From: Luteibacter sp.
GTDB lineage: Bacteria > Pseudomonadota > Gammaproteobacteria > Xanthomonadales > Rhodanobacteraceae
Assembly: GCF_009912395.1 (NCBI RefSeq)
Contig: NZ_WNDO01000013.1
Location: 62,001-126,000 of the forward strand
Direction of reading: 5' to 3'
DNA length: 64,000 nucleotides
The translations under genes were made by a program, and so were the position numbers. Below, one piece after another: positions 1 through 11,911 of this stretch. The notes beneath the pieces are model-generated. The model saw nothing but the letters and a program-made list of their open reading frames with translations, did no database searches and had not been told where the DNA came from. Within the stretch, counting starts at the first letter, position 1. Each line of letters opens with the position of its first letter.

Positions 1-1652
1 GGCGCTTCGCCTTCCTCGTGGGCGTATCGCACCTGCAATCGAATGGCCAACCCCTGGTGTACGCCACGCAAAACCAATCGACCCGCCCAGGCACGTTGAA
101 CCCGGTGACCGGCGCCATCGGCGATACCGGGGCCAATGGCCTGCCCCGCCAGGTGATCGGCATCAACAGCGAAGGCCAGGAGGCGACGAGCCAGGACGAG
201 GCACACCTGCGCCTGACCTATGACATCACGCCCGAGCTGACGGGCGGCGTCACGGCCGGTTACTGGAAACAGGATCTCTCGCACCGCACCGATACCTTCC
301 TGCGCGATGCCTCGGGGCAACCGGTCTGGTCGGGTCCGGTGAGCATTGGCGGTCGCACCTACACCTTGCCCGCGAACTTCTTCGCGCCCAGCACTCGACA
401 GAGCCGAAACTATCTCTATGGCATCTCATTGGGCACGCATCGCGACACGGGCTGGAACGTAGAAGGCAACGCCTCCTACTTCGACATGGATCGCAATCGC
501 GACCGCGTGGCATCCGCCTTTACCGACAATGGCCCAGGCCTGCTGACCGCCGGCGACGGCAGTCGCTGGCGAACCTTCGACCTGCGCGCCAGCCATACCC
601 CGGATACACAGGGACCCAACACGCACACCGTCAGCTTCGGCTATCACTTCGATGGCTATCGCCTGCGTAACGAGAACTACGCGCTCGACCAGTGGCGCGA
701 CGGTGGCGCAGGCGCGTTCACAGGCGGTAACGGCGGCAGTACGCAGACCCAGGCGGTCTATCTACAGGATGCCTGGCAGCTGGACGAACGCTGGAAACTC
801 ACCACCGGCGCACGCTACGAGCAGTGGCGCGCCTTCGGAGGCTCACGCTCCACCGCCGCGGCGACCACGGGTTACCCGGAACGAAAGGAATCGCATACCT
901 CGCCCAAGGCGTCGCTCAGCTACGCGGCCAGCGATTCGCTCACACTGCGCCTCTCCGGCGCGCGCGCCTATCGCTTCCCGACGGTGAGCGAACTGTTCCA
1001 GGGCACGTTCAATGGTATTTCACTGGTCAACAACGACCCGAACCTCAAGCCGGAAAACGATCTGTCGCGGGAGTTGTCCGCTGAGTGGTATCGCATCAAC
1101 GGCGTGGCGCGCTTCACCCTGTTCCGCAGCGATACCCGCAACGCGCTCTTCAGTCAGACGGACACAACGGTATTTCCCAATATCACCAACGTGCAGAACG
1201 TCTCGTTGGTGCGCACACGCGGTGCGGAAGCCAGTTACGACGGCGTGGGCGTGCTTTGGCCTTGGCTCGACCTGACGGCGAATGCGACCTATACCCAGGC
1301 AACGACCGTGCGCAATCCGCGCAACCCTGCCTCGGTGGGCAAGCAGTTCTATCGCATTCCACGCTGGCGTGCGAACCTGGTGGCCACCTGGCATGCGAGC
1401 GAGCGTATCGCGCTGACCTTGGCGGGTCGCTATTCGGGGCGGCAATACAACACGCTCGACCATAGCGACGTGAACCCCGACACGTTCGGCGGTGCCAGCG
1501 ACTTCCTCACCTTCGACGGCAAGCTGACCTGGAAAGCCAATGAGCATGTCGACCTCGGCGTCGGTGTCGACAACCTCACCAACCGCCGTTACTACGTTTA
1601 CTACCCCTACCCGTCACGAACATGGCTGGTCGAAGCAAAGTTTCACCTTTAA
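1..1652 (+). CDS. TonB-dependent outer-membrane receptor, 3' part (5' end outside window)
   Basis: The frame is open from the first bases of the window to TAA at 1650-1652, giving about 550 residues that match the beta-barrel half of a TonB-dependent receptor. It has repeated alternating aromatic/polar barrel strands, a mid-barrel RLSGARAYRFPTVSELFQG block, the late DLGVGVDNLTNRRYY motif typical of the last strands, and a C-terminal aromatic-rich strand ending in F-H-L. The plug domain, TonB box and signal peptide are outside the window. Known role of the family: proton-motive-force-driven uptake of siderophores, glycans or peptides across the outer membrane; the substrate cannot be told from this fragment. 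It converges on the lanthipeptide synthetase gene, with the two stop codons overlapping at 1649-1652, so the genes share no space for a terminator. Confidence 0.9.
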   Translation, partial: RFAFLVGVSHLQSNGQPLVYATQNQSTRPGTLNPVTGAIGDTGANGLPRQVIGINSEGQEATSQDEAHLRLTYDITPELTGGVTAGYWKQDLSHRTDTFLRDASGQPVWSGPVSIGGRTYTLPANFFAPSTRQSRNYLYGISLGTHRDTGWNVEGNASYFDMDRNRDRVASAFTDNGPGLLTAGDGSRWRTFDLRASHTPDTQGPNTHTVSFGYHFDGYRLRNENYALDQWRDGGAGAFTGGNGGSTQTQAVYLQDAWQLDERWKLTTGARYEQWRAFGGSRSTAAATTGYPERKESHTSPKASLSYAASDSLTLRLSGARAYRFPTVSELFQGTFNGISLVNNDPNLKPENDLSRELSAEWYRINGVARFTLFRSDTRNALFSQTDTTVFPNITNVQNVSLVRTRGAEASYDGVGVLWPWLDLTANATYTQATTVRNPRNPASVGKQFYRIPRWRANLVATWHASERIALTLAGRYSGRQYNTLDHSDVNPDTFGGASDFLTFDGKLTWKANEHVDLGVGVDNLTNRRYYVYYPYPSRTWLVEAKFHL

Positions 1653-4369
1653 GCGGACACCGCCTTTTGTGCATCCGCCATGGATGGCAGGTGCTCGTCG
1701 AGCATGAAGGACGCAAAACCACCCCGCCTCAGCCGATGGAAAAACATGGCGACGCCCGCGCTGCCGGTCGCAAGGTCGCAACTCAAGCGAAGTAACCGGC
1801 TCCCTGGAATGGCCAGTCCATCGGGCCGCCGGATCAGGAACGGCTCGATCCCGGTAGCCACCTTGCGTGCCTCGCGCAGATAGATGTCCGCGCGATCGGG
1901 AAGAAACGTGGCCAGGTCGAGCAGGGTCTCGCCAATGCCCGCCAAGCCCTCAAACAGACTCGGATGCATGGCATAGGGACGAAATAGGTCCGCTTCGCCG
2001 GTAAGCACCATGTCCTGGTAGCGCCGATCGCCCGTGACCGCGTACATGCGAGCCGCCACCGCGACGACACCCGCCGTTCCCTGCGCCAGATAGGGAGAGG
2101 GAATGCCGTACTCCAGCGATGACGGCCAACTGGGGTCCCCGTCGGGGTTCGGGCGCCGTTGGGCGAAGTCGAACTCCAGGGCGGACTGAGCCGCTTCGAT
2201 GAACGCCCGCTCGCCGGTCGCCACATGAAGATGCATGAGGAAAAGGGCGATGCCGGAGGCCCCCTGCGCCAGACCGACCGGCTGTCGCCCATTCATTGAC
2301 CAGTGCATACCCTGCTCGTGACGACCAGCCGCACGCAACAGCGCTTCACCCACGTCCTTTGCGTCCGTCAGGAAACCGGTGTTCGATGTCGCATGCCACG
2401 CCTTGATGCATCCAAGGCCCCACCCCGCCATACCCTGATACAAACCAGGCTCCACCCAGGCGGCTGGAGTCATCCCGGACAGATTGCGCATCAACGTCCC
2501 GGCCCTGTCATCCTCCCCCATATCGAACAGGACCCACGCGATACCGGTATCGCCCGTCATGAAACTGGCCCCTCGACCACCCGCCTTGACCGTACCCTCG
2601 AGAAGATACCGCCGGGTCTCGGGATGGACCTTGCCGGTGATCGTGCGGTAGGCATGCGCTATACCCGCCGCACCATGGGCGATACCCCAGGGATGGGTTT
2701 CGAATACACCGACATCCGCTGGCACAAAGCGATCGGGCCTGGACTGCGAGGCCCGTGCATCGATAAATCGCACCAGTTCAGCGACCGGCTCACAGACAGT
2801 GGGATGTTCTACCACGCGATGGGGAACCGGGAGAGTCCCTTCGTCCATCGTTGCCACCACCTCGCGCAAGCGAGCCATGACCCACTGCGGCCGGGGCCGG
2901 CTCGCTGGATCGCAGCAGGTCAACTGCTCCACCAGATCGATCAGGATGGGGGGATAGCCCATGCTGCGTACCATCGACGCGACGAAACGCGAGGCTGCCC
3001 CGCGGTCCAGGGTAAGCATGGTGTTGACCGGCATCACGGCTGCGAACAGATTGGCGCCGAATGCGTAGTAGTCCTCCTCGATCGCCAATGACAATTCTGA
3101 TCGGTCCGGGCAGAGCGACGTGAATCCGGGTGTCCGCAAATCGATCGGCGCATCCATGCCGTGTTCGATAGCCGCCTCCAGGTCGATGAAGCGGACACGG
3201 CCATCGGCATCGACGATGCAGTTGTCTGACGACAGGTCGCCAATGGAAATATTTTCGGCATGCACGCGTTCCATCGCGTCGGCAAGATGGGTGAAGACCT
3301 TGCAGATGTCCTTGAGATAGGACGTCACGTCGCCACGGGTCGCCCTGCACTTCACCCATGGATATCGCCGGCCCAACCAAGCTCGAAGCGTATTGCCTTC
3401 TAGGTACTCCTCCACGAGGAAGGTGTGCTCCCAATCCCGGAAGTGAGCGAAGGGCCGAGGCGTGACATCGAGCTCGGACAGGCGCTGGAGCAATCGAAAC
3501 TCCTTGCGCAAGGTAGCCGTGGCCCCGACACCTTCGCCCACGTTCGGCCGAGCCTCCTTGACGACGACGCGTCGGCCATCGTGGAGATCGTCGGCAAGGT
3601 ACACACCGCCCGCCGCGGAAAACGCCAGCGCCTTGTGAACCCTGAACCGCCCACCGCCGATGACGACATTCGACGTGGAGCCACCCGCCGGCTCGTTGCC
3701 GAAGGGATCTTTCAGCCAGTTGGGTAGCCAATACAGGGGCTGACGCGTATCCACGAGCTTGCTTCCATCCGGTGCGGTGATCAGCCACTCGCGCCGCCCA
3801 TCGGTACGAATCCGAGAGTCGGACACGATGCCGCCATACCGGTAATGCAGTACGCTGGAATCAAGATAGCGTCGGTCGGTCAGGATGCACGGACCCTCAT
3901 ATCCGGACAGGGAGGAATGCAGGTCCTCCATGACGCTGCGGAATTCGTGGATATCACGCGGGTAAATCGTGATGAACTTGCCGGAGGACGACCGCGAGCA
4001 ACGCTTTCCATTGATAGCACGAAGGAAAGGAAGATCCGCGGCGAACTTGAACGCGACGCCGCGCTCCACCAGAAGCGCGATGACGATGGAGAGCACGATG
4101 CGCGCCGTATCCTCCACCGAGGAGACGTGGATTTTCCAGCCCTGGGCGGGAAGGACGAGCGTCGCCGGCCGACAATGCATCCAGATATCGGAACGTACCA
4201 GCTTCCAGTCACGAAATCTCAGCGGATGTCCCGCACGACTGCATCGACGATCGAGAATGCTCTTCGCTAGATCGACGAAATCCTCATCCTGGATGAGCCG
4301 CTGGCTGGGAGAATCGAAGTAGAGCTTATCGACGCCGAGAAAGGGCGTGAAATCGACGCGAGGTTCCAT
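1649..4369 (-). CDS. lanKC: Class III lanthipeptide synthetase LanKC
   Basis: This 906-residue protein has the three-part layout of LanKC. The N-terminal ~210 residues resemble the OspF-like phospho-Ser/Thr lyase, with motifs GWKIHVSS, FKFAADLPFL, SGKFITIYP and GPCILTDRRY. A kinase domain follows, with VVVKEARP (Lys about 271), a GDLSSDN catalytic loop (Asp about 377) and FIDLEAA as the DFG equivalent. The C-terminal half (about 540-890) has the repeated G-x-x-G helices of LanC cyclases (AHGAAGIAHAY, LAQGASGIALF, FEGLAGIGE). I see no CHG or W-C-x-G zinc ligands, which points to class III rather than class IV. Family knowledge: such enzymes phosphorylate, eliminate and cyclise Ser/Thr/Cys in a cognate precursor. 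A precursor gene (4538-4663) lies 168 bp upstream on the same strand, separated by a strong hairpin. The ATG at 4369 is preceded by an AGGAATGGG stretch. Confidence 0.92.
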   Translation of the reverse strand: MEPRVDFTPFLGVDKLYFDSPSQRLIQDEDFVDLAKSILDRRCSRAGHPLRFRDWKLVRSDIWMHCRPATLVLPAQGWKIHVSSVEDTARIVLSIVIALLVERGVAFKFAADLPFLRAINGKRCSRSSSGKFITIYPRDIHEFRSVMEDLHSSLSGYEGPCILTDRRYLDSSVLHYRYGGIVSDSRIRTDGRREWLITAPDGSKLVDTRQPLYWLPNWLKDPFGNEPAGGSTSNVVIGGGRFRVHKALAFSAAGGVYLADDLHDGRRVVVKEARPNVGEGVGATATLRKEFRLLQRLSELDVTPRPFAHFRDWEHTFLVEEYLEGNTLRAWLGRRYPWVKCRATRGDVTSYLKDICKVFTHLADAMERVHAENISIGDLSSDNCIVDADGRVRFIDLEAAIEHGMDAPIDLRTPGFTSLCPDRSELSLAIEEDYYAFGANLFAAVMPVNTMLTLDRGAASRFVASMVRSMGYPPILIDLVEQLTCCDPASRPRPQWVMARLREVVATMDEGTLPVPHRVVEHPTVCEPVAELVRFIDARASQSRPDRFVPADVGVFETHPWGIAHGAAGIAHAYRTITGKVHPETRRYLLEGTVKAGGRGASFMTGDTGIAWVLFDMGEDDRAGTLMRNLSGMTPAAWVEPGLYQGMAGWGLGCIKAWHATSNTGFLTDAKDVGEALLRAAGRHEQGMHWSMNGRQPVGLAQGASGIALFLMHLHVATGERAFIEAAQSALEFDFAQRRPNPDGDPSWPSSLEYGIPSPYLAQGTAGVVAVAARMYAVTGDRRYQDMVLTGEADLFRPYAMHPSLFEGLAGIGETLLDLATFLPDRADIYLREARKVATGIEPFLIRRPDGLAIPGSRLLRLSCDLATGSAGVAMFFHRLRRGGFASFMLDEHLPSMADAQKAVSA

Positions 4370-4394
4370 GGATACCCATTCCTATACAAAGTAC

Positions 4395-4428
4395 CGGCAT
4401 GCAAGGGGCCGGACCCCCTTGCATGCCG
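4395..4428 (-). terminator. Perfect 14-bp inverted repeat between precursor and LanKC genes
   Basis: Arms CGGCATGCAAGGGG (4395-4408) and CCCCTTGCATGCCG (4415-4428) enclose a 6-nt loop. No U-tract follows on the minus strand, so it is better read as an attenuating or transcript-stabilising hairpin than a full terminator. Comparable hairpins between lantibiotic structural and modification genes make the peptide mRNA far more abundant than the enzyme mRNA; that role is inferred here. Confidence 0.6.
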
Positions 4429-4537
4429 CTTCCCTTATAAGGTCTTGCGTGACCTTTACGGTCCTACCTGACGGAATCCCTTGACCCCGCAGGTCGTCCC
4501 GACCCGTTTGTCATGCCTGGCGTTACATAGTCGGCGA

Positions 4538-4663
4538 TTAGCCGAAGCAACCAAGGCTGTACGTACTGGTATCGGTAACGGCCCACCATGCCGTCATGCC
4601 TTCTTCTTCGAACATCTGAAGCAACGGCACTACGTTTGCGCTGTCCTTGTCATGGTCATTCAT
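4538..4663 (-). CDS. lanA: Lanthipeptide precursor peptide (41 aa)
   Basis: A 41-residue ORF starts at ATG 4661-4663 behind a clear ribosome-binding site (GGAGG, 8 nt upstream) and ends at TAA 4538-4540. The N-terminal half is acidic and helical-looking and contains VVPLLQMFEEEG (residues 11-22). This fits the hydrophobic-x-x-L-Q recognition motif of class III leaders, such as ILELQ in labyrinthopeptin precursors. The C-terminal half is rich in Thr/Ser (T24, T30, T32, S33, T34, S36) with a single Cys39 near the end. S33-x-x-S36-x-x-C39 closely resembles the Ser-x2-Ser-x(2-5)-Cys labionin pattern, so one labionin or lanthionine ring is expected. It lies directly upstream of lanKC on the same strand. 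The leader cleavage site is not obvious; the Ala/Trp stretch at 25-28 is a candidate boundary. I infer the function from context and motifs. Confidence 0.8.
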   Translation of the reverse strand: MNDHDKDSANVVPLLQMFEEEGMTAWWAVTDTSTYSLGCFG

Positions 4664-4690
4664 GTCCTTATCCTCCGTGTCGGTATGGTC

Positions 4691-4765
4691 CCGTATTGCA
4701 CCACCTGGGAAGTCCGGGGGGTGCGGGGTGAATCTACGTAGCAGCGACGTGACGGAGCAATACGG
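4691..4765 (-). promoter_or_regulatory. Candidate lanA promoter with flanking 9-bp inverted repeats
   Basis: CCGTATTGC at 4691-4699 and its exact inverse GCAATACGG at 4757-4765 flank a weak sigma-70-like promoter on the minus strand. The promoter would be -35 TTGCTC at 4755-4760 and -10 TAGATT at 4731-4736, with an 18-bp spacer. One repeat overlaps the -35 and the other lies in the predicted leader about 28 bp before the start codon. Such paired sites suit a looping regulator, possibly the adjacent response regulator; this is inference. Confidence 0.35.
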
Positions 4766-4843
4766 CGCACATGCATTTCAATGAAAAGAAGGCCAGTACG
4801 ACCGACTTTCGGCGTCGCCTGGCCGAATTCGGTCATGTCGGGC

Positions 4844-4857
4844 GTCCGCGCGCGGAC
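4844..4857. promoter_or_regulatory. 14-bp perfect palindrome upstream of lanA
   Basis: GTCCGCGCGCGGAC is a perfect palindrome about 180 bp upstream of the precursor start and just past the sensor-kinase stop codon. A further GCGGAC half-site follows at 4872-4877. It could be an upstream activator site or the end-hairpin of the kinase transcript. In GC-rich DNA, chance is also possible. Confidence 0.3.
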
Positions 4858-4879
4858 AGATCCGTTCGCTAGCGGACGC

Positions 4880-6244
4880 TCAGGTGGGGATGCCAAAGGG
4901 AAGTCGCACCACCGCCAGGGCGCCTGGCCCCGCGTCCCGCGATCTCAGCTCGACCGAGCCACCGTGGGCTTCGACGATGAGCCGGCTCAGGCTCAAGCCA
5001 ATCCCCGCCCCGTCCGGTTTCGTCGTGAAGAACGGCACAAACAGGCAGTCGCTGGCCGGCAGCCCTACGCCTTCGTCCTCGATGGTCACGACGACATGCT
5101 CGATTTCGATACGCCAGTCGAGCCAGACCCGGCCTTCCGAATCCCGCGCAAGGGCCGACTCCACCGCGTTACGCAAGAGGTTGACGAAAGCCTGCCCCAA
5201 CTGGTCTTCGTCGCCATCGACCACGGCGGACCGCTGCCCGACCATTTCAACAACCAGACGAGACTCCAGCCGGACCAATCGTGCCAGCGATTCGTCGAGA
5301 CGAAAACGCGTGCGCTGCAACGGTGGCAGGCGCGCGAGTCGACCGTAACCGGCGAGGAACCGGGCCAGACCCGCGGCACGGCGCTCAATGGCATCCAGAC
5401 CATCCTTTACCGTCTGTCGCGCCGTCTCGGGGGACTCCTTGTCCAGCAAAACAGCCAGGCTCCCTGCAAGTGAACCGATCGGTGTCAGCGAGTTGTTTAG
5501 CTCGTAGCTCAACACGCGGATCAGCCGCTGCCAGGCGCGCCGCTCCTCTTCGCTCAGCGCAGCGCTCATGTCGTGCAGCATCACCAGGACATGCTCGCGT
5601 CCCGCGCTGTACCAGACGGCCCGTCTCACGACCCAACGCCCCCTCCCCGAGGGAAAATGATGATCCAGGATGCTGTCGTCACGGGCAGCCAATGCCGGAC
5701 CGAGACCGAGCTGGTCGGCGGCGCGGCCCACGACCGCCGTACGCTCGGCGTGCAAGAGTCGCCGCGCGGCGGGATTGATAAGCCGCAGGACCCCGGTATC
5801 GTCCACCACGAAGACCGCACTGTTAAGCGCAACCAACGTCTTTCCCAGGAAACGCGAGGCCTCGGTGCGTTTTCTCCGGCCATCCCTCAACTCGTCGGAG
5901 AGGGCGTTGATATCGGCGATCAACGCCTGTAGCGGATCGCGGCGCCATTGGACGTGACCACGCAGACCGTAATCGCCTTCGCGCAGCGAGGCCAGCAAAT
6001 CGAACGCCGTGCCCACGGATGCGAGCAGACGTCGCCCGAGGAAGCGCCCTACGAGACCGCTTCCCAGGGCACCTGCGAGCAAAAGCATGAGCCGAGCCGA
6101 TAGCGGCAGATCGTTCCGGCATACCAATACCACGGCCACGAGCGCCAGCGGTAAGGTGTACCAGAAAGCCCAGACCATGGCTCGACGACGAAGCAAACGC
6201 GGATGGGCGACAGATGCAGAGGGTACTTCCGACGGGGTCGTCAT
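4880..6244 (-). CDS. Membrane sensor histidine kinase (NtrY-like) lacking the phospho-acceptor His
   Basis: About 454 residues starting at ATG 6244, behind AAGAGG; a GTG two codons earlier is possible. Two transmembrane helices (about 25-70) are followed by a linker, a PAS domain (about 125-225, LVALNSAVFVVDDTG) and a C-terminal kinase core. The ATP-binding domain looks intact: N-box AFVNLLRNAVESAL, G1 DEGVGLP, F-box FFTTKPDG and G2 GIGLSLSRLI. The dimerisation helix reads VLSYELNNSLTPI, where the family has S-H-E-[LI]-N-N-S-L. Tyr (codon TAC, 5504-5506, residue 247) thus replaces the phosphorylated His. The gene follows the response regulator gene by a few bases and precedes the precursor gene, so it belongs to the lanthipeptide locus. 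It may act as a pseudokinase or phosphatase, or the TAC may be a recent mutation. Confidence 0.88.
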   Translation of the reverse strand: MTTPSEVPSASVAHPRLLRRRAMVWAFWYTLPLALVAVVLVCRNDLPLSARLMLLLAGALGSGLVGRFLGRRLLASVGTAFDLLASLREGDYGLRGHVQWRRDPLQALIADINALSDELRDGRRKRTEASRFLGKTLVALNSAVFVVDDTGVLRLINPAARRLLHAERTAVVGRAADQLGLGPALAARDDSILDHHFPSGRGRWVVRRAVWYSAGREHVLVMLHDMSAALSEEERRAWQRLIRVLSYELNNSLTPIGSLAGSLAVLLDKESPETARQTVKDGLDAIERRAAGLARFLAGYGRLARLPPLQRTRFRLDESLARLVRLESRLVVEMVGQRSAVVDGDEDQLGQAFVNLLRNAVESALARDSEGRVWLDWRIEIEHVVVTIEDEGVGLPASDCLFVPFFTTKPDGAGIGLSLSRLIVEAHGGSVELRSRDAGPGALAVVRLPFGIPT

Positions 6245-6253
6245 AAGCACCTC

Positions 6254-7630
6254 TTACTCGACGTGCTCGAAGTGGCCCTTCGATTTCATCTTCTCGATGC
6301 GCCGGTACAGTGCCTGGCGGGAAATACCCAAGGCATCGGCGGCGCGCTGAAGGTTATGGTCATTTCGTTCCAGGGCGTTGCGTATCAACATTTCCTCGGC
6401 CTCCGGAAGCGTAAGGCGGTCCAGGAGCAGAGGCGAGTCGTCCTGGTTCGAGCACAACGCCAGTCCAGACGCATCGATTTCGTCATGGCTCGCCAGCAGT
6501 ACCGCGCGCTCGATGGAGTGCTCCAGCTCGCGAACGTTTCCCGGCCAGTGATAGCCACGCATCAGACGCTCCGCTGAAGGGGTGAAGATCATGGCGCACC
6601 GGCCCAATCGCCGGCATTCGCGTAAAAGGAAGTGCCGCGCCAGCGGTACGACATCTTCCACGCGCTCGCGCAAGGGAGGCAATTTGATTTGCATTGCATT
6701 GAGTCGATAAAGCAGGTCGCGCCGAAAACGATTCGAACGAATCGCCGCTTCGAGATCGGCGTTAGTGGTGGAGATGACCCGGACATCCACGCGGCGCGTA
6801 CGTGCCGCCCCCTCCCGCTCCAGCTCACCCTCCTCCAGCACACGGAGCAACTTCACCTGGTGAAAGAACGGAATGTTCACCACTTCCTCAAGAATCAGTG
6901 AACCGCCATGTGCAAGCTCGAAGCGCCCCGGTTTCGGCGTGGGCTTGTCTTCGCCAAACATGTCTTCGACGAAACGGGCCTCGGACAGGCTGCCCATGTC
7001 GACGCGTATGACCGTTTCCTCGCTACGCGGCGAAAGCGCATGAATCTCTCGTGCGAAAAGCGATTTTCCCGTGCCATTCTCCCCCAGAAGCAACACATTG
7101 GAATGCGTTGACACCACTTTCGATATCAGGTCGACCACACGACGCATGGACGAGGATTCACAGACACGCACCACATCGGATCCCTGCCTGGCCAGCAAGG
7201 CTTCGCCGCGAAGGCGACGATTTTCCTCGCGCATTTGGCCGAGCGCTATCTGACTGCGCACCGAATGCAGCATTCGCATGTTGTTCCATGGTTTTTCTAT
7301 GAAGTCCGCGGCCCCCAGCTGCATCGCCTTGACGGCTATCTCGACGCTACCCCATGCCGTCATCACCAGTAGCGGAAGATCGGGATATTCCTCGCGAAGA
7401 CGGGCGACGAGCGCCAGTCCATCATGACCCGATGTGGTGTCTGCGCCGTAATTCAGATCCAGCACCGCACAGGAGAACACCTTTGTCGAAACGGCAACCA
7501 TGGCGGCTGCAGGCGATTCCACCTGGACCGACGCGATGTTTTCCGTGCGCAACAGCATGTTCAAGGCCAACCGCACATCGGGGTGGTCATCGACCACCAA
7601 GACGGGCAGGCGTTCGTAAGAATCATGCAT
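6254..7630 (-). CDS. NtrC-family response regulator without a GAFTGA loop
   Basis: This 458-residue protein has a receiver domain (1-125, phosphorylatable Asp58 in VLDLNYG, Lys in FIEKPW), an AAA+ domain (about 150-385) and a Fis-type helix-turn-helix (about 405-458, QRAADALGISRQALYRR). Walker A is GENGTGKSLFA, and the Walker B region is GGSLILEEV with Glu in place of the usual Asp. Where sigma-54 activators have FGHEKGAFTGA followed by GRFE, this protein reads FGEDKPTPKPGRFE. The sigma-54-contacting loop is therefore deleted. It probably regulates through sigma-70 promoters or as a repressor. It is encoded three to nine bases upstream of its sensor kinase and 43 bp downstream of the ABC permease gene, forming one transcription unit. 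ATG 7630 has GGGAG upstream. Confidence 0.9.
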   Translation of the reverse strand: MHDSYERLPVLVVDDHPDVRLALNMLLRTENIASVQVESPAAAMVAVSTKVFSCAVLDLNYGADTTSGHDGLALVARLREEYPDLPLLVMTAWGSVEIAVKAMQLGAADFIEKPWNNMRMLHSVRSQIALGQMREENRRLRGEALLARQGSDVVRVCESSSMRRVVDLISKVVSTHSNVLLLGENGTGKSLFAREIHALSPRSEETVIRVDMGSLSEARFVEDMFGEDKPTPKPGRFELAHGGSLILEEVVNIPFFHQVKLLRVLEEGELEREGAARTRRVDVRVISTTNADLEAAIRSNRFRRDLLYRLNAMQIKLPPLRERVEDVVPLARHFLLRECRRLGRCAMIFTPSAERLMRGYHWPGNVRELEHSIERAVLLASHDEIDASGLALCSNQDDSPLLLDRLTLPEAEEMLIRNALERNDHNLQRAADALGISRQALYRRIEKMKSKGHFEHVE

Positions 7631-7673
7631 GGCGATACTCCCGTCTCGTCGTACTCATATCGGTAGGTGTCGG

Positions 7674-10031
7674 CTAGCGGATAACGTGCAATGGATCGAT
7701 ACGGGAAGCTCTCACAGCGGGGATACCCACTGCGCCCAGGGTAAGCACGATCATGGCTATGCTGACGGAGGCGACGACACCGGCATCGACGATGCGCCAA
7801 TCGGTGATGCGCTCAAGCCACCCCCGGCCCGACAGCCACGCGGCGAGGACAAGACCACTGGCGACACCGGCAAATGCGGATCCACATCCCTGGGACAACA
7901 CGACACCAAGCACATCGGCTGGCGTCGCACCCAACGCGCTCATCATCGCGAAATCGCTTCGCCGCATGGCAACGTCGACCGACTGACTGGAATACAGGCC
8001 GATACACGCCAGTATCAGCGCCACCATCGCGAAGGCCGTCGAGAAGGCCGCGTCACGCAGCGAAGCATCCATCATGCGATCCACATCGGCCTGCAGTGAA
8101 CGGACGTTCGCCACGGCCAACTGAGGAGCTACCTCATGGACCAGGTCGTCAATCATCTTCCGATCAGGGCGATTCATATGCGTCCCACGCAAGAAGACGT
8201 GCATCGACAAGTAGGTCCTTATGTTGTCGAATGTTGATTCGGGTACCTGGGACAGCAGAACAAACACGGCGGGTGGCGGCTCCCTGTCCGGCCCCGATTG
8301 GCGTGTGTCTTCAACGACGCCGACTATGGGCGGAGGCGCATCATGCGCACCAAGCAGTGCCGGCCTCACCACGCTATCCTGTCCGAACGCACGTACATAC
8401 GCCTGGTTGACCAGCGCCACCGGCACGTTTTCAACCTCGTCAAACTGCCGGCCGAGGACAAGGGAAACACCCATGGCGTCGATGGCACCGGGCGTGACGA
8501 CACCGTATTGAACCTGATGTATCAGACCGTTCGCATCGGCGAACGGCATCACAAAACGGCCCGATATGGGCAACAGGCTGGACATGCCCACGCTGGTCAC
8601 CCCCGGCAAGGCATGAAGTCTCTGGCGTAGCTTTTCGAACAGCGTGGCCACATCGCTGACGGTCAGGTACTGCCCCGCATCGGGAGCGATGTCGAAGACC
8701 AGGGCATCCTTCGCTTTGAAACCGACCGGCACGCGATCGAGGTTCCACCAGCGGGCAATCATGCCAACGCTGAGCACCAACAGCATGGTGGCAAGCGCCG
8801 TCTGTGCGAGGGTAACAACCTGCCTCGTACGGCGACCGATGCCAGCGCCGGGGAGAAAGTGATGCGAACGGTGTCCCAACAAATCGGCCGACCGAGCCTT
8901 CATCGGATCACCGAGCATGGCCAAGGCGAGGACGATCGCCGTCACGATGATCGCAAAAACGTGTACGCGCCAGTTGATATGCGACAAGCTTTCGGGTGCA
9001 AACCAATCGTCGAGCAGGAAGCGTGTGTATATACCCGCGAGCAGCCCACCCAGTTGCAAACCAACGATGACCGTCAGGGTGGCGATCACGGCCGCCTCTC
9101 CCAACCCGGGCAACCAGAGTCGATAGCCACGCGCGCCCAACGCGACGCGCAACGCGACCTCTCGGGATCTCGACATCGTACGGACCAGCATCAGCGCAGA
9201 CAGGTTGAGACCGGCGATGGATATCACCAGTACACCGCAGCCGAGGAAGAGCAATAGCAGGGGACGTGCCGACACGGTGATCTGCGCTGAAAGCGTGGAT
9301 GCGCCAAACCCGGCTAACCGATTCTCCGAAATGTGCAACTCGACCGCGTGGCGACTTGCCACCGTCCTGACATGTGTCGCCAAAGACTCGACCGAGGCGT
9401 CGGGCGACAACCAGGCTACCGCCATCAGATTGGAGGTCAGATTCGAGATCGGACCATTAGGGTGCAATGGCAAAAGGAGATCCGCGTCTTCCCGGAAACG
9501 ATAGTCGGGAGGCAACACGCCACGAATGTGGAACGGCTTGCCATTGACCTCGATCGCGCGTCCAATGACCTCAGGACCACCACCGAGAGCCGCTTTCCAC
9601 AGGCGCCAGGAGACGATAGCCTCGTCATCGGCACCCGACAGAGGCTGGCCGGCTATCAGATGAATACCCAGCGTAGGCAGAAAATCCGGATCAACGCGCT
9701 GCGCCCGTAATAACAGGATCGACTCACCCAGTCGCGCGTTGACCGATTCCACCGTACGCGCGACGCCCGTCGATATGACGCCCGCTGGCCGGCCTATCAG
9801 TTCGTACAGACGCGGCGAGATCACCCGCAGAGGCGCGGACGACCCGTAAAAAACGACACGATCGTGATGTGGAAACGGCGGTGGTCGCAACAGTAACGCG
9901 TTGACGGGAATAAATGCGCACACCATGGCCGCCACACCCAGCCCCAGGGTGAGCGATGCAACAAGCAGGTAGGTGGGGCGTCGGAACAGGCCGCGTAGTC
10001 GTCCGACGAGATCCGGCAGTCGGCTGCTCAC
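7674..10031 (-). CDS. ABC transporter permease, FtsX/MacB family
   Basis: This 785-residue membrane protein has the duplicated MacB/FtsX layout. A first TM helix (about 22-45, LLVASLTLGLGVAAMVC) is followed by a ~220-residue periplasmic domain and three TM helices, then a second periplasmic domain and a final TM set. The GTG start overlaps the ATPase stop (GTGA), so the two are translationally coupled. Family knowledge: such permeases move lipoproteins, antimicrobial peptides or peptides out of or within the envelope, usually with an adaptor; no HlyD/MacA-type gene is next to it here. From its place in the same run of minus-strand genes as the precursor and LanKC, I infer lanthipeptide export or self-immunity. 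A role in defence against foreign peptides is the alternative. Confidence 0.87.
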   Translation of the reverse strand: MSSRLPDLVGRLRGLFRRPTYLLVASLTLGLGVAAMVCAFIPVNALLLRPPPFPHHDRVVFYGSSAPLRVISPRLYELIGRPAGVISTGVARTVESVNARLGESILLLRAQRVDPDFLPTLGIHLIAGQPLSGADDEAIVSWRLWKAALGGGPEVIGRAIEVNGKPFHIRGVLPPDYRFREDADLLLPLHPNGPISNLTSNLMAVAWLSPDASVESLATHVRTVASRHAVELHISENRLAGFGASTLSAQITVSARPLLLLFLGCGVLVISIAGLNLSALMLVRTMSRSREVALRVALGARGYRLWLPGLGEAAVIATLTVIVGLQLGGLLAGIYTRFLLDDWFAPESLSHINWRVHVFAIIVTAIVLALAMLGDPMKARSADLLGHRSHHFLPGAGIGRRTRQVVTLAQTALATMLLVLSVGMIARWWNLDRVPVGFKAKDALVFDIAPDAGQYLTVSDVATLFEKLRQRLHALPGVTSVGMSSLLPISGRFVMPFADANGLIHQVQYGVVTPGAIDAMGVSLVLGRQFDEVENVPVALVNQAYVRAFGQDSVVRPALLGAHDAPPPIVGVVEDTRQSGPDREPPPAVFVLLSQVPESTFDNIRTYLSMHVFLRGTHMNRPDRKMIDDLVHEVAPQLAVANVRSLQADVDRMMDASLRDAAFSTAFAMVALILACIGLYSSQSVDVAMRRSDFAMMSALGATPADVLGVVLSQGCGSAFAGVASGLVLAAWLSGRGWLERITDWRIVDAGVVASVSIAMIVLTLGAVGIPAVRASRIDPLHVIR

Positions 10032-10792
10032 AAGAAGGTTTCCAGAGCACGACGCTCATCCAGGCCGCACTCCGCTTCGCGTCGCAATTGCTGGAAGGTG
10101 CTCTCGTCGACGACGCGACCATCGAGCAGGCGAACCACGCGATCGGCCACGAAGCCGAAGCGCTCGTCATGGGTCACCATGCAGATCGTCCTGCCCGAGG
10201 CGTGCAGCCGCGACAGCAGGGCCATGACGGTTTCGCCATTGGGCAGGTCGAGATTGCCCGTCGGCTCGTCAGCCAGAAGGATCGCCGGATCGCCGGCCAG
10301 GGCCCGTGCCACGGCGACACGCTGCTGTTGCCCGCCCGATAACTGCGCCGGGTAGTGGCTCATGCGATGGGCCATGCCTACGCTGGAGAGCGACTCCGCG
10401 GCGCGCTCCATGCGCTCCCGACGTCCCATGCCATGGCGGAAGGTCAGGGGGAGCTCCACGTTCTCCGCGATGGTCAGGTCGGGAAGGAGGTTGAAGGTCT
10501 GGAAGACGAAGCCGATAAGGGTGTTCCTCATCGCCGCGCGCGCATGCCGCCCCAATCCCTGCACGGGACGGCCGGCGACGTGCAGCTCGCCGTACGTCGG
10601 CGTGTCGAGCAAGCCCATCAGGGACAGCAGGGTCGTCTTGCCGCATCCGGAAGGTCCGGCGATGGACACGAATTCACCTTGACGGATATCCAGGTGGATA
10701 TCCGTCAGCACGTGGTTTTCCATCGCACCGGCATGGAACACCTTACCGATGCCGCGCATCTCGACGACGGAGGGGACGGATTCCGTCAACAC
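10028..10792 (-). CDS. ABC transporter ATP-binding protein, MacB/LolD-like
   Basis: This is a complete 254-residue ATPase: Walker A GPSGCGKTTLLSLMG, Q-loop FVFQTFNLLPDLT, signature LSGGQQQRVAVARAL, Walker B ILLADEPTGNLD and switch His in VTHDER. I chose the GTG at 10790-10792 because GCGAGG lies 7-8 nt upstream; an in-frame TTG at 10816 is possible but lacks a ribosome-binding site. The gene is the first of the minus-strand unit that runs ATPase, permease, regulator, kinase, precursor and LanKC, and it is coupled to the permease by a 4-nt overlap. It energises the FtsX-type permease next to it. Confidence 0.9.
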   Translation of the reverse strand: MLTESVPSVVEMRGIGKVFHAGAMENHVLTDIHLDIRQGEFVSIAGPSGCGKTTLLSLMGLLDTPTYGELHVAGRPVQGLGRHARAAMRNTLIGFVFQTFNLLPDLTIAENVELPLTFRHGMGRRERMERAAESLSSVGMAHRMSHYPAQLSGGQQQRVAVARALAGDPAILLADEPTGNLDLPNGETVMALLSRLHASGRTICMVTHDERFGFVADRVVRLLDGRVVDESTFQQLRREAECGLDERRALETFL

Positions 10793-10851
10793 GGCATGAC
10801 CTCGCTTGTCAGGCAAGTACGATCGAGCCTACGCCCGGATCATGTCGGTTG

Positions 10852-11020
10852 TCGCGGTCCCGCGAACGCGGCGTGAAAGCAGTTTTTGCCTATATGCCGT
10901 TATTGCATATCGAATGCACGGTTACGGCAGGCAACATAACGAAAATTAACTATTTATTTACAAATAGATGGCAAGGGATGTCATAAGCAAAATCTAAGCT
11001 TACAATTCGCTTACGGGGTT
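10852..11020. promoter_or_regulatory. Divergent promoter region with inverted repeats
   Basis: This gap between the ABC operon (minus) and the kinase-like gene (plus) contains the only strongly AT-rich patch nearby (about 10930-11010). It holds several inverted repeats: TCGCGG-TC-CCGCGA (10852-10865), CTATTT-N6-AAATAG (about 10950-10967), and a CCGTTATTGC at 10897-10906 that resembles the CCGTATTGC repeats at lanA. Promoters for both directions probably lie here, but I could not place -35/-10 boxes with confidence. Confidence 0.35.
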
Positions 11021-11101
11021 GGGACGCAGTCATCTGGCTGTGGAGTTTCTTGGGAAATGGGCGGTTCATCGCCGGTTTGCCAGGTTCACGGAGAGCCCCG
11101 A

Positions 11102-11911
11102 ATGGTGCAGCAATTCAAGTTGGGCGGACGCACCGCCTGGCTAAAGCGTTACGACCCTGACAACTGGCTCAGGCCCTCACTGGTGCGCGTCTGGAACGCC
11201 CTGGCGTCCCGTCTCGACCTGATGGCACTGCGCTCGCCACCACGCTACTCGGGCGAACAGGCCAAGAACATCGAATTGCGCCGTCTCGAGGCGTTGCGTG
11301 CTTGCGGTGCACCCGTGCCGCGCATCCTGGGCGAAGGACCTCGCAGCCTCATCCTCAGCGACATGGGCCCGACCCTCGCCCACCGCCTGAAGCGTCTGAA
11401 GAGCGCCAACGACGCCGACATCCTGGTGCGGCAGACGGCACAGGCCATTGGCAAGCTGCATCGCCATGGTGGCTACCTGGGCCAGGCGTTCGCGCGCAAC
11501 ATCACGGTCGGCGACACCGGCGTGGGTTTCATCGATTTCGAGGAGGACCCCAGCGAGATCATGAGCCTTGCGCAGGCCCAGGCACGCGACTGGGTGATCT
11601 TCACGACCGGCGTGGGTCCGTATTTCACCGACCGTATGGATGTGCTGAGCGATCTTATCCGTGACCAGGCAAGCCAGGCCGAGCCGCAGGTCGCCCGCGA
11701 AGTCCACCGCATCGCAAGCCGGCTGGGCTTCCTGGAACGCGCAGGGCGCCTCCTGGGCCGCAAGGCGGCAGCGATGGGCGCGGCGATCGGTGCGATACGC
11801 AAGGGCTTCGCTACCTTGGCCATCGCCGCCGTCCTGATCGATGTACTCAGTGATGGCGACTGCGACATGTGGCTCGCCATGGTCGACGTGGTAAGTCACG
11901 CGGCCACCTGA
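11102..11911 (+). CDS. Kinase-fold membrane protein (LPS-kinase/RIO-like), probably degenerate
   Basis: About 269 residues from ATG 11102, chosen because GGAG lies 8-9 nt upstream; an in-frame ATG at 11057 has poorer spacing. It has the outline of a small eukaryotic-like kinase fold: a lysine in AWLKRYDP, a hinge-like ILSDMGPTLAHRL, QAIGKLHRHGGYLG, and FIDFEEDP as the metal-binding loop. At the catalytic loop, where H-G-D-x-x-x-x-N is expected, it reads L-G-Q-A-F-A-R-N, so the catalytic Asp is missing. A hydrophobic C-terminal segment (about FATLAIAAVLIDVLS) suggests membrane anchoring. Similar proteins are found in xanthomonads, but the function is unknown to me. It is divergent from the ABC operon and upstream of the hybrid kinase, with no obvious link to either. 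Confidence 0.6.
   Translation: MVQQFKLGGRTAWLKRYDPDNWLRPSLVRVWNALASRLDLMALRSPPRYSGEQAKNIELRRLEALRACGAPVPRILGEGPRSLILSDMGPTLAHRLKRLKSANDADILVRQTAQAIGKLHRHGGYLGQAFARNITVGDTGVGFIDFEEDPSEIMSLAQAQARDWVIFTTGVGPYFTDRMDVLSDLIRDQASQAEPQVAREVHRIASRLGFLERAGRLLGRKAAAMGAAIGAIRKGFATLAIAAVLIDVLSDGDCDMWLAMVDVVSHAAT

Follow-up and report, generated by a model that had tools for sequence, protein, structure and literature searches.

Does a cluster of six genes in a Luteibacter genome make a class III lanthipeptide, is it peculiar to one strain, and how might its expression be controlled? The DNA analysed here (termed "the window" throughout) is a 64-kb stretch that covers bases 62001-126000 of contig 5 in a genome of 5.39 Mb. 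Luteibacter is Gram-negative, and some members of the genus are associated with plants and fungi.

Gene content and gene order of the locus

The initial annotation had placed a LanKC, a small ORF, an ABC ATPase with its permease and a two-component pair on one strand. All six genes were found there, on the minus strand and with every reading frame open:

1649-4369, minus strand: LanKC, assigned as class III lanthipeptide synthetase (lyase-kinase-zinc-less cyclase), 906 aa
4538-4663, minus strand: putative LanA precursor peptide, 41 aa; leader ..VVPLLQMF.., core ..TDTSTYSLGCFG
4671-4676, minus strand: ribosome-binding site GGAGGA of the precursor (sequence reading)
4880-6250, minus strand: histidine kinase; two hydrophobic segments, very short loop, PAS, HATPase_c
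6254-7630, minus strand: NtrC-family response regulator; receiver, AAA+, Fis HTH
7674-10031, minus strand: FtsX/MacB-type permease, ADOP-like, 785 aa (Pfam and NCBIfam)
10028-10816, minus strand: ABC ATPase, 262 aa; overlaps the permease gene

The order ATPase-permease-regulator-kinase-precursor-LanKC is kept in all 21 genomes that carry LanKC (in G012 it is spread over two contigs). The six genes had been taken as one unit. A class III locus with a conserved six-gene neighbourhood is borne out, but it looks like two transcription units. Judged from the sequence, these are probably ATPase-permease-regulator-kinase and precursor-LanKC, and conserved promoter-like elements precede the latter. 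Pfam matched none of the six locus genes to a protease family, which agrees with the earlier statement that a dedicated leader protease is missing from the locus.

A TonB-dependent receptor gene adjoins LanKC in 19 of 20 relatives. On the other strand of the window, 11057-11911 (plus) is a conserved flanking gene with no Pfam match and with a weak kinase-fold match (TIGR03724, Bud32) far below the cut-off.

The LanKC synthetase

By its sequence, the product of 1649-4369 is a class III lanthipeptide synthetase. It scores 700.8 bits against the class III model NF038151 (cut-off 575). Assignment as a class IV synthetase (LanL) was rejected because the score against NF038150 (543.9 bits) is below the cut-off of 650. 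RamC_N lyase, kinase and LANC_like domains were all matched in the chain; the Pkinase match (31.1 bits) falls just below its cut-off (31.7), and PK_Tyr_Ser-Thr is above its own cut-off.

The solved chains closest by sequence are those of ThurKC (8sao, 8sap, 8sam), for which residues important for lyase and kinase have been named (PMC10604976). The equivalents of K65, H67, K94, K108, K117, D152, R163, R191, K257, E279, D382 and E384 are invariant in 20 of 20 aligned LanKCs, that of the window included. Ser726, Phe770 and Asp771, which replace the zinc ligands in ThurKC, correspond to Ala762, Phe806 and Glu807 in the window protein. Among the 20 LanKCs, Cys occupies the first zinc-ligand place in one and the second in one, and His occupies the third in none. 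The assignment of lyase, kinase and zinc-less LanC domains made at the outset is thus upheld. The split LanKC of G012 (L048/L049) was excluded from the residue tables and from the identity medians given below.

Distribution in Luteibacter and beyond

A class III locus in a proteobacterium had been reported for this DNA. The locus proved to be real, but it is not one odd case: LanKC is encoded in 21 of 23 Luteibacter genomes (one genome per species, the window's own included). Counting only matches above the cut-off, LanKC is present in 21/233 genomes of the family (20 of these 21 are Luteibacter), in 29/398 genomes sampled from the order, and in 1/398 genomes sampled from the phylum, namely the window's own. 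From these counts, LanKC looks rare in Pseudomonadota and concentrated in Luteibacter. A loose search of the family gave matches in 223 of the 233 genomes, mostly partial ones to the kinase or cyclase part, and only the 21 above the cut-off were counted. When genome contigs were searched for related loci, L. anthropi was the sole match.

In a quick, midpoint-rooted tree of 33 rows, which has some long branches, the LanKCs of the syntenic Luteibacter loci are set apart from the others by a branch with an SH-aLRT support of 100. The sister of the window's LanKC in this tree is that of L. anthropi (L028). The tree was computed without the interrupted LanKCs L088 and L100 and without the split L048/L049. 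The LanKC gene of L088 (G112) is interrupted by TGA, and that of L100 (G450) gives two separate matches.

Two genomes have no LanKC. One of them, G016, shows an empty site, in which some 150 bp separate the ends of the matches to the two flanking genes (the receptor gene and the one on the opposite side). In G011, the second flanking gene is absent from the stretch examined. One Luteibacter genome has a second LanKC (L047, G008:C1:2268500-2285200, at 9018-11669), which is 30% identical to the window's and is associated with the precursor ..VLNLQSLEIDWEDLFHACLSIASSTSTANDGGC. In the tree, this second LanKC lies closest to L089 (G159), from a different genus.

The candidate precursor peptide

The ORF at 4538-4663 codes for MNDHDKDSANVVPLLQMFEEEGMTAWWAVTDTSTYSLGCFG. 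As described initially, it is a 41-codon ORF with a strong ribosome-binding site (GGAGGA), a VVPLLQ leader motif and a Ser-x2-Ser-x2-Cys tail (S33-x2-S36-x2-C39). The peptide has the hydrophobic-x-LQ leader and the (S/T)x2Sx(2-5)C core expected of a class III precursor, its x2 spacing falling within the Sx(2-5)C range of this class. The LxLQ leader motif and an Sx2Sx3C core are given in PMC7268733.

An ORF of 40-45 codons lies between kinase and LanKC in 20 of 20 relatives. The initial annotation had proposed to look at LanKC neighbours in related genomes, where the lack of a conserved precursor was to count against it; a conserved precursor is present in every one of the 20. Across the relatives' precursors, five positions do not vary: the first Met, the Leu, the Gln, the second Ser and the Cys. 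The 20 relatives have 20 different precursors, with 17 different eight-residue ring motifs.

The window precursor is unusual in this set. The core is (S/T)x2Sx3C in 20/20 relatives, and the Sx2Sx2C of the window differs from all of them. A C-terminal tail (..DGFEE or similar) is found in 19 of the 20; it is missing from the window peptide and from that of L. anthropi (L028). Pfam and NCBIfam gave no match to the window precursor. A profile built from the 20 other precursors and run against the window's whole genome missed it, the best hit (E 0.07) being elsewhere. At the DNA level, an alignment of the window ORF with the precursors of L028, L029 and L048 runs through start, leader and core. 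In 20,000 dinucleotide shuffles of the 512-bp gap, an ORF with Shine-Dalgarno sequence (SD), leader motif and ring motif did not occur (0), one with SD and leader motif occurred in 196 and an SD ORF alone in 3263, where the motif had been picked after the ORF had been seen. Given its position, its ribosome-binding site, its motifs and the DNA alignment, we consider 4538-4663 a credible though unusual precursor.

A one-ring peptide had been predicted, but Sx2Sx2C could give either a lanthionine or a bicyclic labionin.

The two-component pair and the state of the window copy

The regulator lacks the GAFTGA sigma-54 loop in 21 of 21 loci, and sigma-54 control of the locus was rejected on this ground. 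The phospho-acceptor Asp is kept (Asp58 in the window). NtrC proteins without GAFTGA have been reported to act at sigma-70 promoters (PMC10274813). Seven further matches to the regulator below 1e-40 are encoded in the window's genome, the best being 45% identical.

By hydropathy, the window kinase has two hydrophobic segments separated by a loop of about 7 residues, and thus no extracytoplasmic sensor domain is apparent; this is a crude scan, uneven in some relatives (only one segment in G008). Its H-box reads SYELNNSL, with Tyr249 (codon 5504-5506) at the phospho-acceptor position, which is His in 20 of 20 relatives. The kinase of the window strain may thus not autophosphorylate. The two-component pair had been assigned a regulatory role. 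It is a conserved part of the neighbourhood, but because of Tyr249 such a role is doubtful in the window strain itself.

These peculiarities raise the question whether the window carries a decaying or silenced allele, with open genes, a shortened precursor and a kinase without phospho-acceptor, so that the strain makes no peptide. The substitution in the kinase is confined to 1 of 21 loci, the precursor lacks the tail and has a ring one residue shorter, the profile of 20 precursors misses it, and one of the two palindromes described below carries a mismatch. Yet every reading frame is open, and the locus of L. anthropi, with its likewise tailless precursor, keeps the His. Compared to L. anthropi, the dN/dS of the five large genes is 0.06-0.18 (with dS near saturation). 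Relative-rate counts for window versus L. anthropi, with L029 (G002) as outgroup, are 66 vs 51 for LanKC and 29 vs 20 for the kinase, with a chi2 below 2 for both and hence no significant speed-up. Taken together, dN/dS values and relative-rate counts do not show a general decay of the locus, and such decay was rejected as sole cause of the odd precursor. We consider a silenced allele unlikely.

The ABC transporter

The permease resembles the ADOP family, with 422.3 bits against TIGR03434, which is below the cut-off of 622.3. It is the fastest diverging of the five large genes. Its median pairwise identity is 38.3% (190 pairs), compared to 68.9% for the ATPase (one row was dropped by the length filter, leaving 171 of 190 pairs), 67.7% for the regulator, 58.5% for the kinase and 58.1% for LanKC. 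Only one paralogue of the permease, a distant one (24% identical), is encoded in the window's genome. That the permease changes so fast next to a peptide that is itself variable suggests that the two may be in contact. The transporter had been described as the exporter of the peptide. An FtsX/MacB-type transporter is indeed present, but export is one reading, and sensing or self-protection are equally possible.

In Bce-type modules, an ABC transporter with an FtsX permease does the sensing on behalf of a kinase without sensor domain. The FtsX permease and, by hydropathy only, the short loop between the two hydrophobic segments of the kinase recall this arrangement. On this resemblance, and since ATPase, permease, regulator and kinase seem to be transcribed apart from precursor and LanKC, it might be argued that transporter and two-component pair form a module for stress or for the detoxification of peptide antibiotics and are only neighbours of the lanthipeptide genes. 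This is distinctly improbable, given that the gene order is kept in 21 of 21 carriers, that a pair of palindromes at the precursor occurs in 18 of the 21 and is absent from the two genomes without LanKC, and that the permease has a median identity of 38% vs 69% for its ATPase.

Palindromes and promoter-like elements

The gap between kinase and precursor contains two GTCCN6GGAC palindromes with a 20-bp period, followed by promoter-like elements:

4864-4877, no strand: palindrome 1, GTCCGCTAGCGAAC, one mismatch, 20 bp from palindrome 2; candidate regulator-binding site (pattern search)
4844-4857, no strand: palindrome 2, GTCCGCGCGCGGAC (pattern search)
4755-4760, minus strand: -35-like TTGCTC, 18 bp ahead of the TAGATT box
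4731-4736, minus strand: -10-like box TAGATT, 121 bp past the start of palindrome 2

The 23 Luteibacter genomes were searched for the palindrome pair with up to one mismatch. It was found in 18/21 LanKC carriers, always upstream of LanKC, and in 0/2 non-carriers. As to the three carriers without a passing pair, the period is 19 bp in G008, and G018 and G022 have one perfect copy each. Of the 18 genomes with the pair, 17 have it at a single place and the window's genome has it at two. The reversed control pattern matched in 1 of the 23 genomes.

Two side observations concern the window's genome. A further one-mismatch tandem-palindrome place lies outside the locus, on contig 25 (G000:C25:23444-23477). 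Within the window, a third, degenerate half-site, TGACCGAATTCGGCCAG, is found about 20 bp past palindrome 2 (4819-4835, minus strand), and similar ones occur in several relatives.

In 16 of 21 loci, the TAGATT box follows palindrome 2 at a distance of 118-120 bp; a strict box is missing from the remaining five. A TTG is found at +92 to +99 in 17/21 loci (control windows: mean 1.4, maximum 11, the last ones overlapping the site), and TTG-N17/18-TAnnnT in 15/21. Because the species are related, these counts of palindromes, boxes and TTG are not independent events. The regulator may bind the palindromes, and 4731-4760 is a candidate promoter.

Alternatively, the palindromes could work at the RNA level, either as hairpins or as a terminator for the kinase gene. 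Those of the window are found within 40 bp of the stop codon of the kinase and could pair in RNA. Such elements would hardly account for two copies with a 20-bp period held at 118-120 bp from the box in 16 of 21 loci, while the distance from box to ATG varies (42-74 bp, 15 loci scored). We regard this as very improbable and retain the palindromes as putative protein-binding sites.

Proposed mechanism

That the precursor was called wrongly and another ORF, such as 4464-4589, is the substrate can practically be dismissed: the negative profile of 20 relatives would fit, but 4464-4589 contains no Cys, for which reason it was rejected, whereas the DNA of 4538-4663 aligns with the precursors of L028, L029 and L048.

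We consider it highly probable that this is a Luteibacter form of a class III locus, with a peptide made by LanKC, handled by the transporter, and expressed from a promoter driven by the two-component pair. LanKC would bind the precursor via its hydrophobic-LQ leader, phosphorylate Ser/Thr residues of the core and then eliminate the phosphate. One thioether system, lanthionine or labionin, would be closed from S33/S36 onto C39, and the leader would be cut off by a protease encoded elsewhere. The FtsX/MacB-type ABC transporter would export the peptide, or sense and remove it; the direction of transport and the ring chemistry are given here as we infer them. The sensor-poor kinase and the GAFTGA-less NtrC-type regulator would drive the precursor-LanKC promoter, the regulator acting from the tandem palindromes, which precede a sigma-70-like -10 box by about 120 bp. 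The most likely function would be that of a species-specific signalling or competition peptide.

A more daring version is a self-sensing circuit. Here, the class III peptide of each species would be read or exported by the fast-changing permease, which would signal to the sensorless kinase and on to a sigma-70-type NtrC-like regulator with essentially one genomic target, the promoter of the peptide itself; the window strain would be a "deaf" variant. We offer this tentatively, as a rather unlikely idea. If it holds, members of a Gram-negative genus would use species-specific peptides as pheromones or for competition.

Apart from this, the varied precursors on one enzyme clade are a ready set for testing the substrate tolerance of LanKC, and also suit a test of whether ring size (x2 or x3) decides between labionin and lanthionine. 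The regulator with its proposed operator is a handle for turning on a silent peptide.

Comparison with known systems

Most LanKCs known in 2020 came from Actinobacteria and Firmicutes, and actinobacterial class III clusters usually have no dedicated protease (both PMC7268733). For Luteibacter, the only lanthipeptide entry that we found in the open-licence literature is a table of antiSMASH results for L. mycovicinus, which marks "Lanthipeptide Class III" in 4/5 strains and calls it uncharacterised (PMC11165876). The genus is the same; the passages of that paper used here do not give precursor, gene order, regulator or promoter, and identity with the window locus is only possible. In another paper that names Luteibacter, the lanthipeptide is one from Pseudomonas. 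Class III itself is known, but the open-licence papers searched yielded nothing on this precursor, on the gene order or on the operator, all three of which appear to be undescribed there.

A class III cluster listed under Pseudomonadota is LanIII of Myxococcus fulvus, where 7 dehydrations were obtained on expression, and where the cluster has no protease (PMC9576775). It differs in its lineage, and only a modified peptide is described.

Fourteen other class III loci of the order (L087-L100) have a LanKC that is 29-36% identical to the window's and LxLQ-type precursors in upstream gaps. Several similar precursors of this type may precede one LanKC: there are three in L092 (G334) and two each in L094 (G307) and L087 (G141). 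MacB/FtsX permeases are encoded downstream of LanKC in L087, and L098 has a regulator and a kinase upstream of LanKC (37% and 32% identical to the window's), so that such parts are not unique to Luteibacter. The full ATPase-permease-regulator-kinase order was seen in 0/14 of these loci. Ten neighbour proteins from five of them were scanned, which revealed ABC_membrane exporters, HlyD, one C39 peptidase and MacB/FtsX.

With the GAFTGA-less NtrC proteins of Caulobacter and Rhodobacter and with VspR, the regulator shares membership in the NtrC family and the missing sigma-54 loop; those proteins act at sigma-70 promoters (PMC10274813). In contrast to them, the proposed Luteibacter operator pair occurs at a single genome place in 17/18 genomes (two in the window's).

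With the class III lanthipeptides (SapB/AmfS, labyrinthopeptin, curvopeptin; ThurKC/andalusicin), the locus shares the three-domain LanKC, the residues of its lyase and kinase, a cyclase that lacks the zinc ligands, an LxLQ-type leader, the (S/T)x2Sx3C core (in the Luteibacter relatives) and a locus without dedicated protease. It differs from them in its occurrence in a Gram-negative genus, in the Sx2Sx2C core of the window, in a two-component pair and an FtsX/MacB-type transporter in fixed order, and in a palindromic pair upstream of the precursor.
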